The notes under the pieces are model-generated. The model made no database searches and was not told where the DNA came from. It saw only the letters and a program-made list of their open reading frames with translations. A DNA stretch of 64,000 nucleotides from Cyanobium sp. Morenito 9A2 (GTDB taxonomy: Bacteria > Cyanobacteriota > Cyanobacteriia > PCC-6307 > Cyanobiaceae): NCBI RefSeq assembly GCF_024345575.1, contig NZ_JAGQBJ010000001.1:434001-498000 (forward strand). The letters run 5' to 3'. Positions 26,272-31,472 of the stretch are shown piece after piece (position 1 is the first letter of the stretch; each line of letters starts with the position of its first letter). The position numbers were made by a program, and so were the translations under genes.

Positions 26272-26628
26272 ATGAGTCGCCCCGAGCAATGGACCTGCAT
26301 CAGTGGTTGTGGTGCCTGTTGCCGGCTCGATCCCGACGAGCGCGGCGAGGCCCTCGCTGCGCTGGATCCCGACCAGCGCACGCTCTATCTCTCGATGGTG
26401 GGCCCCGATGGCTGGTGTCTCCATTACGACAGCGGTGGCCGCCGCTGCCGGATCTATGACGGGCGACCGACGTTCTGCCGGGTGGAGAACCTGGCTGATC
26501 TGTTCGCGGTGCCGGAGGAGGACGGCGACCGTTTCGCGATTGGCTGCTGCCGCCAGCAGATCCGCAGTGTCTACGGAGGCCGTGGCAGGGTGTATCGCAG
26601 TTTCGAGCGAGCCATCCAGGGACGCTGA
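26272..26628 (+). CDS. YkgJ-family cysteine cluster protein
   Basis: This 118-residue protein is rich in Cys: CISGCGACCRLDP near the start, CLHYDSGGRRCRIYDGRPTFC in the middle (given here at family-motif scale) and a CCR near the end. This is the YkgJ/UPF0153 pattern thought to bind zinc or an iron-sulfur cluster. Its last base is the first base of the next start codon, tying it to the GDT1 pair. Its biochemical role is not known. Confidence 0.85.
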   Translation: MSRPEQWTCISGCGACCRLDPDERGEALAALDPDQRTLYLSMVGPDGWCLHYDSGGRRCRIYDGRPTFCRVENLADLFAVPEEDGDRFAIGCCRQQIRSVYGGRGRVYRSFERAIQGR

Positions 26629-27011
26629 TGGGCGATGCCAGCCAACCCGCCACACCTGATGCCGACGCGGCATCGCTCGACCTGAAGGCCCCGTCCCAGG
26701 TGACCGCCCAGGGGGCAGGCAGCTGGGGAGCCGTCTTCCTCACCACGGCCACCACGGTGTTTCTGGCTGAGCTGGGCGACAAGACCCAGCTGGCGGCCTT
26801 GTTGCTCTCGGCCCAGTCCGGTCAACCGGTGGTGGTGTTCTTCGGGGCCGCCTTGGCCCTGATCTGTTCGTCGTTTGTGGGGGTGGTGTTGGGCCGCTGG
26901 CTGGCGGGCGTGATGCCGGCCCACCAGTTGGAGCGCCTGGCGGGCATCTTGATGGTGGCGCTGGGCCTCTGGATCGGTCGCCAGGCCGCCCTTGGTCTGA
27001 TGTCGCCCTGA
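26628..27011 (+). CDS. Half-size GDT1/TMEM165 (UPF0016) cation transporter, first subunit
   Basis: This 127-residue protein has a 30-residue soluble N-terminus and then three hydrophobic helices. The signature ELGDKTQ sits in the first helix (FLAELGDKTQLAALLL). Full UPF0016 transporters carry two such halves and move manganese or calcium against protons; the cyanobacterial type is needed for manganese homeostasis at photosystem II. Here each half is a separate gene, so this protein must pair with the one at 27051. A co-transcribed YkgJ gene precedes it. Confidence 0.87.
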   Translation: MGDASQPATPDADAASLDLKAPSQVTAQGAGSWGAVFLTTATTVFLAELGDKTQLAALLLSAQSGQPVVVFFGAALALICSSFVGVVLGRWLAGVMPAHQLERLAGILMVALGLWIGRQAALGLMSP

Positions 27012-27050: not shown

Positions 27051-27368
27051 ATGACCCTCCCTCTGCTGGCCTCCACCTTTGTCACTGTGTTCCTGGCGGA
27101 ACTGGGTGACAAGACCCAATTGGCGGTGGTGTCGATCAGCGGCACCTCGAACCGCCCCGGGGCTGTGTTCGCCGGCAGCTCCGCCGCCCTGGTGCTGGCG
27201 AGTCTGCTCGGTGCGGCAGCCGGGGGCTCGCTCTCCTCGGTGATCGATCCTGAAACCCTTCAACTGGCGGCGGCCCTGGGCTTTCTGTTGATTGGTGGCC
27301 GCCTGATCTGGCGCTCCAGCCAAGGGGACCCCACGGCGACTCCAGCCGGCGATCCCACGGATCCTTAG
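27051..27368 (+). CDS. Half-size GDT1/TMEM165 (UPF0016) cation transporter, second subunit
   Basis: This 105-residue protein has three hydrophobic helices and ELGDKTQ near residues 16-22 (VFLAELGDKTQLAVV). It starts directly in the membrane helix, unlike its partner. The 39-base gap and shared strand support a two-gene unit. Together the two give the six-helix, two-motif fold of a complete manganese/proton exchanger. Which half faces which side would be set by the different N-termini. Confidence 0.87.
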   Translation: MTLPLLASTFVTVFLAELGDKTQLAVVSISGTSNRPGAVFAGSSAALVLASLLGAAAGGSLSSVIDPETLQLAAALGFLLIGGRLIWRSSQGDPTATPAGDPTDP

Positions 27369-27452: not shown

Positions 27453-29759
27453 ATGAAGTTCACGGTCGCCGACCTGCTCGACCAGCTCCCCGCCAGTGAG
27501 CCGTTGCCGGTCGCCAAGTTGGAGAAGGCGCTCGGGTTGAGCCTCAAGAGCGACAAGGACCAGCTGCGCATCGCCCTCGACGGCCTCAGCCGCTTGGGCC
27601 TGCTGGAGGCCGAGGGGGAAGTGGTCAGCCGCCGCGTGGATGACGGCTTGATCGAGGCGCGGCTGCGCTGCTCCAGCAAGGGCTTTTGCTTCGCCCTGCG
27701 CGATGACGGCGGCGAAGACATCTACATCCGCGACCACCAGCTCAACCACGCCTGGAATGGCGATCGGGTGCTGGTGCGCATCACCCGTGAAGGCGGTCGC
27801 CGCCGTTCCCCCGAGGGTGGCGTGCAGTGCATCCTCGAGCGCGGCACCACGGCTCTGCTGGCCCAGGTGGCGCAGCAGTACGAGCGGTTGGTGGCGGTGC
27901 CCCTCGATGACCGCCTGCTCACCACCGTTGAGCTGCCGGAGGTCGACAGTGCCCATCTCAACCCCGAGCAGGAATCGGTGGTGGAGGTGCGCATTGACCG
28001 CTACCCGGTGGGCCAGTTCGCCCCCCAGGGCCATGTGGCCCGCAGCCTGGCGATCAACGGCGGCCCCGAAGCCGACCTGGATCTGTTGATCACCAAGCAC
28101 GGCCTCGGTGACCTTCCGGCGCCCCCCCGTGCCACGCTCAAGAGCCTGCCTGAGAAGGGTCGCACCGATCTCACAGCCCTGCCCACCCTTCTGCTGGAGG
28201 GCTGGAGTGGCGGCGAGGCGCCGCTGCTTCCGGCGGTGTCCCTGGAGGACACCGGCGAAGGCTGGCGGCTGTGGGTGCACGCCCCGGCGGTGGCCGAGCG
28301 GCTCAGCTTCGCTGGCAACCTCGATCTCTGGCTCCGGGAGGCCGCCGAAGCCCTTTGCCTTGGCCCCCGCTGGCTGCCCCTGCTCACGCCTGCCCTCACC
28401 AAGGCGGCCGCCTGGACCACCGGTGAGGGTCAGGCGGCCCTCTCGGTGGCCCTGGAGCTCGATCGCCAAGGGGTCTTGCAGCACTACAGCTTCAGCCGCA
28501 GCACGGTCAGCGTCGGGGCCCGCGTCGAGGCCAGGGCGCTTCAGGCCCTGGCCGAGCGCAAGCCGAAGGCCCGCACCGTGCCCGCTGCCCTCAAGGCGCT
28601 CAAGGATCAGCTCCCCCTGCTGGAGCAGCTCATCGACGTGGCCGGGCTGCTGCGGCAGCAACGGCGACAGGCGGGCTCGATCGATCTTGATCTGCCCACC
28701 CCGCCAATCGAGAGCCTCGGGGATCTGACGATTCCACCCCCGGATGAGACCCGCGAAGGTTGGCTGGTCTCACTCGATGACACCAGCCCCTTTGCCCTGC
28801 TGCGGGAACTGCTGATCCCGGCCCACCGGGCCCTCGGCCGCCACCTGGCCGCCCTGGAGCTGCCGGCCCTCTATGCCACCAACGAGTCTCCCGATCCAGC
28901 CGATCTGAACGAGGTGGCCAAGGCCGCCCTGGCCCTGGAGATCCCCCTGGAGCTCTCCTGCGACGGCAACGCCAGTGCTTTGGAACTGGCGACGGCCTTT
29001 GCCGCCAGCGACCGCTCCCGGGTGTTGCAGCAGCAGCTCAAGGACACCCTGCGGCCAGTGCAGCTCAGCGAGGTCCCAGGCCCCAATGAACTGGCGGGCG
29101 AGGACACTGCCTTTGCCCCCTGGACCCAGCCCGGTCTCCATTACGCCGACATCTGGAACCAGCAGGTGCTGGTGCTGCTGCTCACCGAAGGCAAGGATCG
29201 CCCTTCCGTGCGCCACAAGACCAGGGTGGATCTGGCCTCGGACAGCTGCCATGGCCAGGTGGACTGGCCGCTGCTCGCCCCCAGCGCCCTGATCCCATTC
29301 CAGGAGGCTCGCAGCCATGCCCTTCTGCACCGCCTCAACACCCGCTCCCGCTTCGTCAAGGAGCTGCACGCCGATGCCCTGGCCCTGGCCCAGGCGCGCC
29401 AGGCGGAGCCCCTGGTGGGACAGACCCTGCATGGGGTGATCAGCGGCGTGCAGAGCTACGGCTTCTTCGTGGAGGTGCCTCCTTCCCAGGTGGAGGGGCT
29501 GGTGCACGTGAGCTCCCTGAAGGACGACTGGTACGAGTACCGCTCCCGTCAGAACCGTCTGGTGGGGCGCAAGAACCGGCGCACCTACATGCTCGGCGAC
29601 AGCGTCGAGGTGGTGATCCAGAAGGTCGATGTGCTGCGCCATCAGATCGATCTGGTCGTGATCCAGCCTGAAGATGTCGAAGCAGGTGCGTCCAGCGTCG
29701 TCGACGAATCCGATGGTGACGGAGCCGACTCCCTGCCGGTCACCTCCGGAGAGGATTGA
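27453..29759 (+). CDS. RNB-domain protein with degenerate active site and S1 domain
   Basis: ATG 27453 gives 768 residues (GTG 27426 would add nine). The order is an N-terminal winged-helix-like region, cold-shock-like domains, an RNB-like core (about 235-650) and a C-terminal S1 domain (HGVISGVQSYGFFVEVP). In RNase II/R the core carries an Asp cluster ending in D-D-A after DLTALD. Here DLTAL (from residue 239) is followed by PTLLLEGWSGGEAPLL, with no such Asp cluster. The later SPIRRYADL-type motif reads QPGLHYADIWNQQ. It is probably inactive as an exonuclease and RNA-binding. It may be the protein called Zam (acetazolamide resistance) in cyanobacteria; this is uncertain. Confidence 0.8.
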   Translation: MKFTVADLLDQLPASEPLPVAKLEKALGLSLKSDKDQLRIALDGLSRLGLLEAEGEVVSRRVDDGLIEARLRCSSKGFCFALRDDGGEDIYIRDHQLNHAWNGDRVLVRITREGGRRRSPEGGVQCILERGTTALLAQVAQQYERLVAVPLDDRLLTTVELPEVDSAHLNPEQESVVEVRIDRYPVGQFAPQGHVARSLAINGGPEADLDLLITKHGLGDLPAPPRATLKSLPEKGRTDLTALPTLLLEGWSGGEAPLLPAVSLEDTGEGWRLWVHAPAVAERLSFAGNLDLWLREAAEALCLGPRWLPLLTPALTKAAAWTTGEGQAALSVALELDRQGVLQHYSFSRSTVSVGARVEARALQALAERKPKARTVPAALKALKDQLPLLEQLIDVAGLLRQQRRQAGSIDLDLPTPPIESLGDLTIPPPDETREGWLVSLDDTSPFALLRELLIPAHRALGRHLAALELPALYATNESPDPADLNEVAKAALALEIPLELSCDGNASALELATAFAASDRSRVLQQQLKDTLRPVQLSEVPGPNELAGEDTAFAPWTQPGLHYADIWNQQVLVLLLTEGKDRPSVRHKTRVDLASDSCHGQVDWPLLAPSALIPFQEARSHALLHRLNTRSRFVKELHADALALAQARQAEPLVGQTLHGVISGVQSYGFFVEVPPSQVEGLVHVSSLKDDWYEYRSRQNRLVGRKNRRTYMLGDSVEVVIQKVDVLRHQIDLVVIQPEDVEAGASSVVDESDGDGADSLPVTSGED

Positions 29760-29761
29760 GC

Positions 29762-30376
29762 ATGGAGCCGGTGGTGCTGGCCGTGTCCGGCGCTTCCGCC
29801 CAGCCCCTGGCCCAGCGGGCCCTGCAGTTGCTGCTGGAGGCGGGCGAGACCGTGGAACTCGTGACCAGCCGCGGGGCGATCGGGGTCTGGCAGGCGGAGC
29901 AGGGGCTGCGGGTGCCCTCGGAGCCAGAGGCCCAGGAGCTTTTCTGGAGGAGGCGCACCGGCACCAGCTCGGGCACCCTTCACTGCCACCGCTGGAACGA
30001 TCAGGCCGCCGCCATCGCCAGCGGCAGCTTTCGCACCCGCGGCATGGTGATCCTGCCGGCGAGCATGGGCACCGTGGGGCGAATCGCTTCGGGGGTGGCC
30101 CTGGATCTGATCGAGCGGGCGGCGGATGTGCATCTCAAGGAGGGGCGGCCCCTGGTGATCGCCCCCCGCGAACTGCCCTGGAACCTGGTTCACCTGCGCA
30201 ACCTCACCACCCTGGCCGAAGCAGGGGCGCGCATCGCTCCGCCCGTTCCCGCCTGGTACCACCGGCCCACCAGCCTGGAGGAGATGGTGGATTTTCTGGT
30301 GATCCGGGTGTTCGATTGCCTCGGCTACGACCTCGGCTCCCTGCGCCGTTGGCAAGGTCCCCCCTCCACCTCCTGA
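29762..30376 (+). CDS. ubiX: UbiX-type flavin prenyltransferase
   Basis: UbiX makes prenylated FMN, the cofactor of UbiD decarboxylases. The ATG at 29762 gives 204 residues. The flavoprotein motifs are VVLAVSGASAQPLAQRALQL, VTSRGAIGVWQ, VILPASMGTVGRIASGVA and RPLVIAPRELPWNLVHLRN. It follows the RNB gene by two bases and precedes a small membrane protein. The expected UbiD partner is not in this window. Confidence 0.92.
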   Translation: MEPVVLAVSGASAQPLAQRALQLLLEAGETVELVTSRGAIGVWQAEQGLRVPSEPEAQELFWRRRTGTSSGTLHCHRWNDQAAAIASGSFRTRGMVILPASMGTVGRIASGVALDLIERAADVHLKEGRPLVIAPRELPWNLVHLRNLTTLAEAGARIAPPVPAWYHRPTSLEEMVDFLVIRVFDCLGYDLGSLRRWQGPPSTS

Positions 30377-30383
30377 ACGGCCC

Positions 30384-30953
30384 GTGCTGCGACGCCTGCT
30401 GCTGATCCCGTTGCTGGCCCCCCTGCTCGCCGTGCTGCTGGTGGCTGCGCTCAACCCCCGGCCGGCCCTGCGCCTGCGGCTGCTGGTCTGGAGCGCGCCG
30501 GCCCTGCCCCTGGGGGGCTTGATCACCCTGGCGGCGGTCGGTGGCGCCTTGCTCAGCGCCGGCGCCACGGCCCTGGCCCTGCGCTCAGGAGCTCCAATGC
30601 TGCGCCGACAGGCGCGTCAGGGGGCGGCCGCAGCGTCCTGGGACCAGGCTGCCCCACCGCGGCCGCGCCAGGCACCTGCCGAAACCGCTGCGCCCGCTGG
30701 GTGGAGTTGGCCCCGTCGTTCTCCGCAGGACCCACCCCCCACCGTGTCGGTGCCCTTTCGGGTGATCCGGAAGGGCAACGGTCAGGCTGCCGCCCCATCC
30801 GCCCCGAGCGCATCCGCCCAGGGGTCGGCGGCAGCACCCCACGCCAAAGCCACTTCCGGCGCCAGCTCCGTTTCCAGCCCTGCCCCTGGGTCCTCCGCAG
30901 GCACCCGGGATCAGGGTGAGAGTTGGGAGAGCTCCGCCCAAGACGACTGGTAA
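30384..30953 (+). CDS. Small membrane protein with low-complexity C-terminus
   Basis: This 189-residue protein has two hydrophobic segments in the first 70 residues (LLLIPLLAPLLAVLLVAALN, then a Gly/Ala-rich one). A long Pro/Ala/Ser-rich, probably disordered tail ends in QDDW. A conserved-looking stretch VSVPFRVIRKGNG lies in the tail. I do not recognise the family. It follows ubiX by seven bases and looks co-transcribed. Confidence 0.6.
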   Translation: MLRRLLLIPLLAPLLAVLLVAALNPRPALRLRLLVWSAPALPLGGLITLAAVGGALLSAGATALALRSGAPMLRRQARQGAAAASWDQAAPPRPRQAPAETAAPAGWSWPRRSPQDPPPTVSVPFRVIRKGNGQAAAPSAPSASAQGSAAAPHAKATSGASSVSSPAPGSSAGTRDQGESWESSAQDDW

Positions 30954-31001: not shown

Positions 31002-31472
31002 GTGAGCGATACGACCAACCCTGCATCCAGCCCCGAGACGAACCCGGCCGCGCGACCCGAGCCGCAGGCGGCCCAGCCTGCCAAGGCGGCGGCGGCCAAG
31101 GTCAAGCCCCCCGCCCCGGAGGACAGGCCTTTCGCTGACTTCATCCCTGAACTGTTTCTGCCTGCTCTGCGGGAGCGCCTTGAGGCCTCCGGGGCGGCTC
31201 TGGGCGAGCTGTCCTTCGAGCAGGGGCCGATCCCCGTGGTTGCCCGGCCTGCCTGGCAAGTGAAGGGGGACTTGTCTGGGGGGCGTCGCTTCTGGTTGAG
31301 CTTTGTCGACGGCGACATCAATGGCGCCAAGACCTTCGCCCTGGCCGAGGGGGGCAGCGAGCCCACCCTGTTGGAATCGTTTCTGGTGGATGAGAAGAAG
31401 AGCACCCTGGCCCTGCTGGTGTCCCGGGTTGTGTCACGGCTCAATGGCCAGAAGTGGCTGGGCCCCAACTGA
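31002..31472 (+). CDS. DUF2996 family protein
   Basis: This is a 156-residue protein. Residues 1-45 are a Pro/Ala-rich tail, and the rest is a compact domain with [40 protein letters not shown] and [20 protein letters not shown]. This matches DUF2996, a family of cyanobacteria and plants with a proposed role in photosystem biogenesis. The neighbouring acsF gene is consistent with a thylakoid or pigment link but does not prove it. Confidence 0.78.

Follow-up and report, generated by a model that had tools for sequence, protein, structure and literature searches.

Zam, an RNase R-like protein with a degenerate active site, is encoded beside ubiX in Cyanobium sp. Morenito 9A2

The locus described here raises the question of what a protein with the architecture of RNase R does once the acidic residues of its active site are gone, and whether it is still maintained. 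The gene lies in a window, by which is meant the whole 64,000-nucleotide stretch analysed, from Cyanobium sp. Morenito 9A2 (contig NZ_JAGQBJ010000001.1, positions 434,001 to 498,000), whose genome of 3.10 Mb in 26 contigs is 99.79% complete and carries two RNB genes. The explanation favoured, with a probability of about three in four, is that the gene is zam and that its product is an RNase R-like and most likely dead RNB protein, in which the first cold-shock domain (CSD1) and the S1 domain would serve redox-dependent RNA regulation and the RNB domain would act as a scaffold.

The zam reading frame is uninterrupted from an ATG at 27453 to a TGA at 29757-29759 and encodes 768 amino acids (27453-29756). 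The features of the gene discussed below are listed here by position in the window.

27453..29759, plus strand: zam coding sequence with stop codon, 768 amino acids, from the reading frame, Pfam domains and placement in the Zam clade
27453..27650, plus strand: N-terminal helical region, approximately residues 1-66, with predicted helices at 5-10, 20-26 and 32-47
27660..27827, plus strand: CSD1 (OB_RNB), residues 70-125, Pfam PF08206, 69.3 bits
27669..27689, plus strand: CSSKGFC, containing C73 and C79, by alignment the redox cysteines of PCC 7002 Zam (function from PMC9145284)
27828..27830, plus strand: C126, an additional cysteine that is invariant in the window's family
28161..29186, plus strand: RNB domain, residues 237-578, Pfam PF00773, 138.7 bits, fold kept in the predicted model
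28197..28232, plus strand: former Asp loop, residues 249-260, from alignment to E. coli RNase II
28356..28358, plus strand: C302 at the position of Tyr253 in RNase II, Cys in 44 of 48 same-family Zams
28560..28604, plus strand: basic segment, residues 370-384 (K370, R374, K381, K384), conserved in the family
29127..29153, plus strand: QPGLHYADI in place of the SPIRxY motif, with L562 for R500, from alignment
29412..29654, plus strand: S1 RNA-binding domain, residues 654-734, Pfam PF00575, 44.0 bits

The domain order is OB_RNB(CSD1)-CSD2-RNB-S1, all four domains scoring above their Pfam cut-offs (CSD2 with 44.1 bits), and the RNB core and S1 domain are thereby kept, as the original prediction had held. 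The protein aligns to RNase R chain 8cdu_C from residue 14 on, and by position its N-terminal region probably corresponds to an RNase R-like winged helix with a presumed boundary.

The roles assigned below to the catalytic residues of RNase II are in part general knowledge and in part drawn from cited papers. In an alignment to RNase II and RNase R of E. coli, the catalytic loop of RNase II reads TALPTLLLEGWSGGEAPLLPAVSL in the window protein, such that E249, P257, L259 and P260 replace D201, D207, D209 and D210 of E. coli RNase II. The tetrad is therefore E-P-L-P and retains a single acid, the Glu at the D201 position. The losses extend beyond the loop: Tyr253 and R500 are gone as well, SPIRKYGD of RNase II corresponds to QPGLHYAD, and the equivalent of E542 is a His. 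The original prediction that the Asp cluster is missing and that QPGLHYADI stands where SPIRxYAD is expected was thus borne out by alignment. Acids conserved in more than 70% of 48 family proteins were also sought by sequence across residues 233-309; those found (D239, E265, E282, D291 and E299) all lie outside the loop, and within the former Asp loop no acidic residue is conserved among the 48. Since the nearest conserved acids lie outside the loop, the tetrad is not recovered elsewhere at the sequence level.

Chance or artefact was considered as a source of the pattern and ruled out, as there is no frameshift, the pattern is common to the family, and zam is intact in a second genome of the same genus at 86% identity. 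Chance is likewise excluded by the wider comparison, in which none of 203 Zams but 17 of 18 canonical RNB proteins have all four acids. The alignment strongly supports a loss of exonuclease chemistry in the window protein. Of the proposal that it is a pseudo-exonuclease that binds RNA, the first half is thus strongly supported by sequence, whereas RNA binding is not supported: according to PMC9145284, purified PCC 7002 Zam showed neither nuclease activity nor RNA binding, in a preparation where the protein aggregated.

The window protein is Zam, which is known across cyanobacteria. The suggestion that it might be the cyanobacterial Zam is upheld by its architecture, its CSSKGFC cysteine pair, its placement in a clade, the adjacent ubiX gene and the fact that the genome has another RNB gene, which is canonical. 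A tree was built from 74 of 200 Zam rows (each less than 68% identical to the others) and eight outgroup rows; the window protein falls inside the 74-row Zam clade (SH-aLRT 99), apart from the canonical RNB proteins. The outgroup rows do not lie on one side of a branch, and because the long branches of E. coli RNase II and RNase R meet, the tree leaves the affinity to RNase R or to RNase II unsettled. The check for a second RNB gene found one, which by its residues has a canonical site (D-E-D-D, with the Tyr and Arg kept):

Contig C2 of the same genome (G000), RNB match 104041-104904: canonical RNB gene L001, from alignment

With one D-E-D-D gene and zam, the genome retains a canonical RNase and a second, degenerate one. 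Two small genes that resemble rpmG and rpsR precede the canonical gene. The Glu that L001 has at the D207 position also occurs in 7 of the 17 other canonical RNB proteins aligned.

Like the window protein, the published Zam (sll1910 of Synechocystis PCC 6803 and A1543 of Synechococcus PCC 7002; PMC9145284) has this architecture, degenerate acids and the cysteine pair, is accompanied in the genome by another, canonical Rnb and occurs across cyanobacteria. That 2022 paper reports that Zams across cyanobacteria lack the acids and form their own clade, and that two CSD1 cysteines are redox-active and required; C73 and C79 of the window protein sit in the L12 loop of CSD1, as in Zam. Deletion of zam gives phenotypes in both PCC 7002 and PCC 6803, and in PCC 7002 loss of Zam lowers phycocyanin synthesis and alters the PSI:PSII ratio (PMC9145284). 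Unlike the published Zam, the window protein belongs to a divergent family subgroup on a stem of 1.4 changes per column, in which P257, C126 and C302 are fixed; a description of such a subgroup was not found in the available part of the Zam paper or in open-licence literature.

An AlphaFold2 model of Zam, made with 39 relatives (pLDDT 82.0, pTM 0.80), has an RNase R-like fold. Compared with solved bacterial RNase II/R chains, the predicted model gives Z values of 29.9-37.6, its best solved fold matches being RNase R chains (7dcy, Z 37.2 over 615 residues); the value for E. coli RNase R (5xgu_A) is 35.0 over 600 residues. The RNB fold is predicted to be kept in the window protein, although a fold by itself is no proof of function. 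RNase R (TIGR02063; E. coli 5xgu and 8cdu) has the same domain order, gives the top NCBIfam match and ranks with the best matches by fold, yet the window protein scores 193.6 bits against the curated cut-off of 597.85 for TIGR02063 and keeps a single acid of the four. In its way of working, the nearest parallel is Ssd1, a yeast pseudonuclease of the Dis3L2 branch, for which the model gives Z 31.3 over 610 residues (7am1_A). Like Zam, Ssd1 has kept the fold while losing the acids, and its cold-shock domains are well conserved (PMC8934651, PMC8097288); the four acid positions are occupied by Ser, Val, Glu and Phe, the RNA channel is blocked by insertions in CSD1 and S1, and the RNA site has moved to the outer surface (PMC8934651). 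Active-site losses among its relatives are graded and repeated (PMC8097288). Ssd1 and Zam differ in having separate origins.

The state of the site was followed across 203 distinct Zam proteins (200 plus three more), from which the contig-edge fragment L223 was excluded; L135 is a duplicate of L007. Zam was found in 76 of 76 genomes of the same, photosynthetic class, while seven genomes from other branches of the phylum gave only canonical-type RNB matches or weak pieces. Three acids remain at the tetrad positions in 29 Zams, two in 58, one in 73 and none in 43. In all 29 three-acid proteins it is the D207 position that is lost (Val in 14, Ala in 14, Thr in one) with the other three acidic, and these proteins have Tyr or Phe at 253, Arg at 500 and Glu at 542. 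At the far end of the series, L238 and L240 (genomes G193 and G085) have the Asp loop deleted outright. The TIGR02063 score drops along with the acids, from 582.2 bits in L004 (three) to 456.8 in L015 (two) and the 193.6 bits of the window protein (one). Single tetrad letters in divergent rows such as L070, L105 and L178 hinge on gap placement because the length of the loop varies.

Both equivalents of C73 and C79 are present in 199 of the 203 Zams. The first is missing in L048, L058 and L240 and the second in L211 and L240, the latter being also short (a 699-residue open frame). Replacing C73 by Ser in PCC 7002 has the effect of a deletion, yet natural losses of C73 and C79 occur; as the pair is incomplete in four Zams, it cannot be the basis of a universal switch.

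Within the window's family, presumably the picocyanobacteria (the Synechococcus/Cyanobium/Prochlorococcus group), a Zam match is present in 50 of 61 genomes and in all 34 with a completeness of 90% or more and contamination no higher than 5%. A full Zam was obtained from 48 of the 50, G245 yielding a fragment and G241 the S1 part only. The tree includes 37 family rows, all on the 1.4-change stem. The position of D207 is Pro in 48 of 48 family Zams, that of D209 is Leu in 41 and that of D210 is Pro in 41. C126 is found in all 48 and in none of the 155 other Zams, and at 31 columns a residue shared by 90% or more of the family differs from the majority in other Zams. Read from these columns, the dead site of the family is refixed rather than random.

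Mean pairwise identity among the 48 family Zams is 0.78 for CSD1, 0.68 for S1 and 0.40 for RNB. Estimates of dN/dS were obtained by a simple pairwise count (custom script) for four Zam pairs and for three genome pairs in which Zam and Rnb could be set side by side. Among the four Zam pairs the ratio is 0.02-0.06 for CSD1, 0.08-0.14 for S1 and 0.20-0.37 for RNB, and CSD1 and S1 are the most strongly constrained domains of Zam. In the three genome pairs, where protein identity is 0.62-0.66 for Zam and Rnb alike, the RNB ratio is 0.33-0.35 for Zam against 0.20-0.29 for the active Rnb, which indicates that the RNB domain of Zam is maintained, somewhat less tightly than that of Rnb. The domain is thus under purifying selection that is not far from that on its active paralogue.

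One alternative is that the RNB pocket of the family has gained a new, non-nuclease role, as a second thiol redox site or as a clamp for a ligand or RNA, formed in either case by W251, P257, C302, W307, C126 and the basic segment K370-K384. The long family stem, the 31 family-specific columns, the fixation of C126 and P257 with C302 nearly so, and an RNB ratio near that of active Rnb all speak for it; the refixation could also reflect no more than repacking of the core once the acids were lost, and as a replacement for the scaffold explanation the pocket is considered unlikely.

A second alternative is that Zam retains weak or unconventional exoribonuclease activity, the loss of acids merely slowing it. 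The 29 Zams with three acids and the accompanying Tyr or Phe, Arg and Glu lend themselves to this view, and so does work on Anabaena. The study of RNA degradation by Anabaena Alr1240 is reportedly that of Zhou in 2020. A review states that Alr1240 degrades unstructured RNA and enhances cleavage by RNase E (PMC10989914), and the protein is assigned to Zam in PMC9145284. Gene order agrees with the assignment: alr1240-alr1241-alr1242 are listed as one transcription unit (PMC10287535), and zam, ubiX and a third gene follow one another in three of three genomes of a family (f7) that is presumably the Nostoc group, where rnb comes after rpmG-rpsR-like genes in the two of them for which the rnb region was examined. 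Zams of the three genomes have one or two acids. If Alr1240 is Zam, then either Zam has residual activity or the preparation contained a co-purified nuclease. Against retained activity stand the joint loss of acids, Tyr253 and Arg500 in the window protein, the two Zams that have no loop at all, and the lack of activity reported for PCC 7002 Zam in PMC9145284, and this alternative is regarded as improbable.

That zam is a decaying, functionless relic, as the lower conservation of RNB relative to CSD1 and S1 might suggest, is very improbable and was rejected on dN/dS from the pairs described above, the ratio being below 1 in every domain of the four Zam pairs, and in view of the presence of zam in all 34 of the better family genomes and the deletion phenotypes in PCC 7002 and PCC 6803 (PMC9145284).

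The neighbouring genes in the window are as follows.

26628-27008 and 27051-27365: two adjacent genes upstream of zam, with one GDT1 domain each
29762..30376, plus strand: ubiX, flavin prenyltransferase, TIGR00421, 160.5 bits against a cut-off of 108.9
30384-30953: gene without a Pfam match, between ubiX and acsF
31002-31472: DUF2996 gene, between ubiX and acsF

Adjacent to zam, as the original prediction had it, ubiX directly follows it; its ATG lies 2 nt past the zam stop, and its reading frame is open also from a TTG at 29756. On the same strand the order is zam, ubiX, the two further genes and acsF, a chlorophyll-synthesis gene. The pairing is widespread: of the 118 testable loci (those with at least 700 bases downstream), 104 have ubiX downstream of zam in the same orientation, with 44 of 47 in the family and 60 of 71 among the named loci. 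A scan for promoters and terminators gave nothing above shuffled sequences. Co-transcription of zam and ubiX is likely, and a link of the pair to quinone chemistry is possible. The GDT1 genes are halves of a cation/proton antiporter, and their order, including a CxxCxxCC gene, is kept at locus L235, as are the gene without a Pfam match and the DUF2996 gene.

Under the favoured explanation Zam, the descendant of an RNA-cutting enzyme, probably survives as a redox-sensitive RNA regulator. CSD1 and S1 would be its working surfaces, contacting RNA, RNase E or both under the control of the thiol/disulfide state of C73-C79, and the RNB domain would be a non-catalytic scaffold, an arrangement by which Zam would tune RNA turnover to the photosynthetic redox state. 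The RNase E step rests on the Anabaena Alr1240 work. Within this family, the site that was once active has been rebuilt from its own set of conserved residues, new cysteines included. A more specific proposal is that in picocyanobacterial Zam the site was rebuilt along one long branch into a conserved module (W251, P257, C302, W307, C126 and the basic segment), under selection near that on the active paralogue, and that this module forms a second redox-sensing or RNA- or partner-binding site coupling RNA turnover to photosynthesis; this is tentative, a minority possibility.

The finding is for the most part ordinary, since its core claim, a degenerate site, has already appeared in print for Zams. 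The graded series of losses, the refixed site, the C73/C79 losses in four Zams and the pairing with ubiX were not found in the open-licence papers searched. Beside the ordinary identity of the gene, the rebuilt former active site of these tiny cyanobacteria is a smaller new point. Published accounts also disagree, in that Zam is called a non-nuclease and RNase activity is reported for an Anabaena protein identified as its orthologue. With Zams that range from three acids down to a deleted loop, the point at which cutting ceased becomes directly testable, and the zam-ubiX pairing, which ties an RNA regulator to a flavin prenyltransferase gene, offers a lead on redox input.
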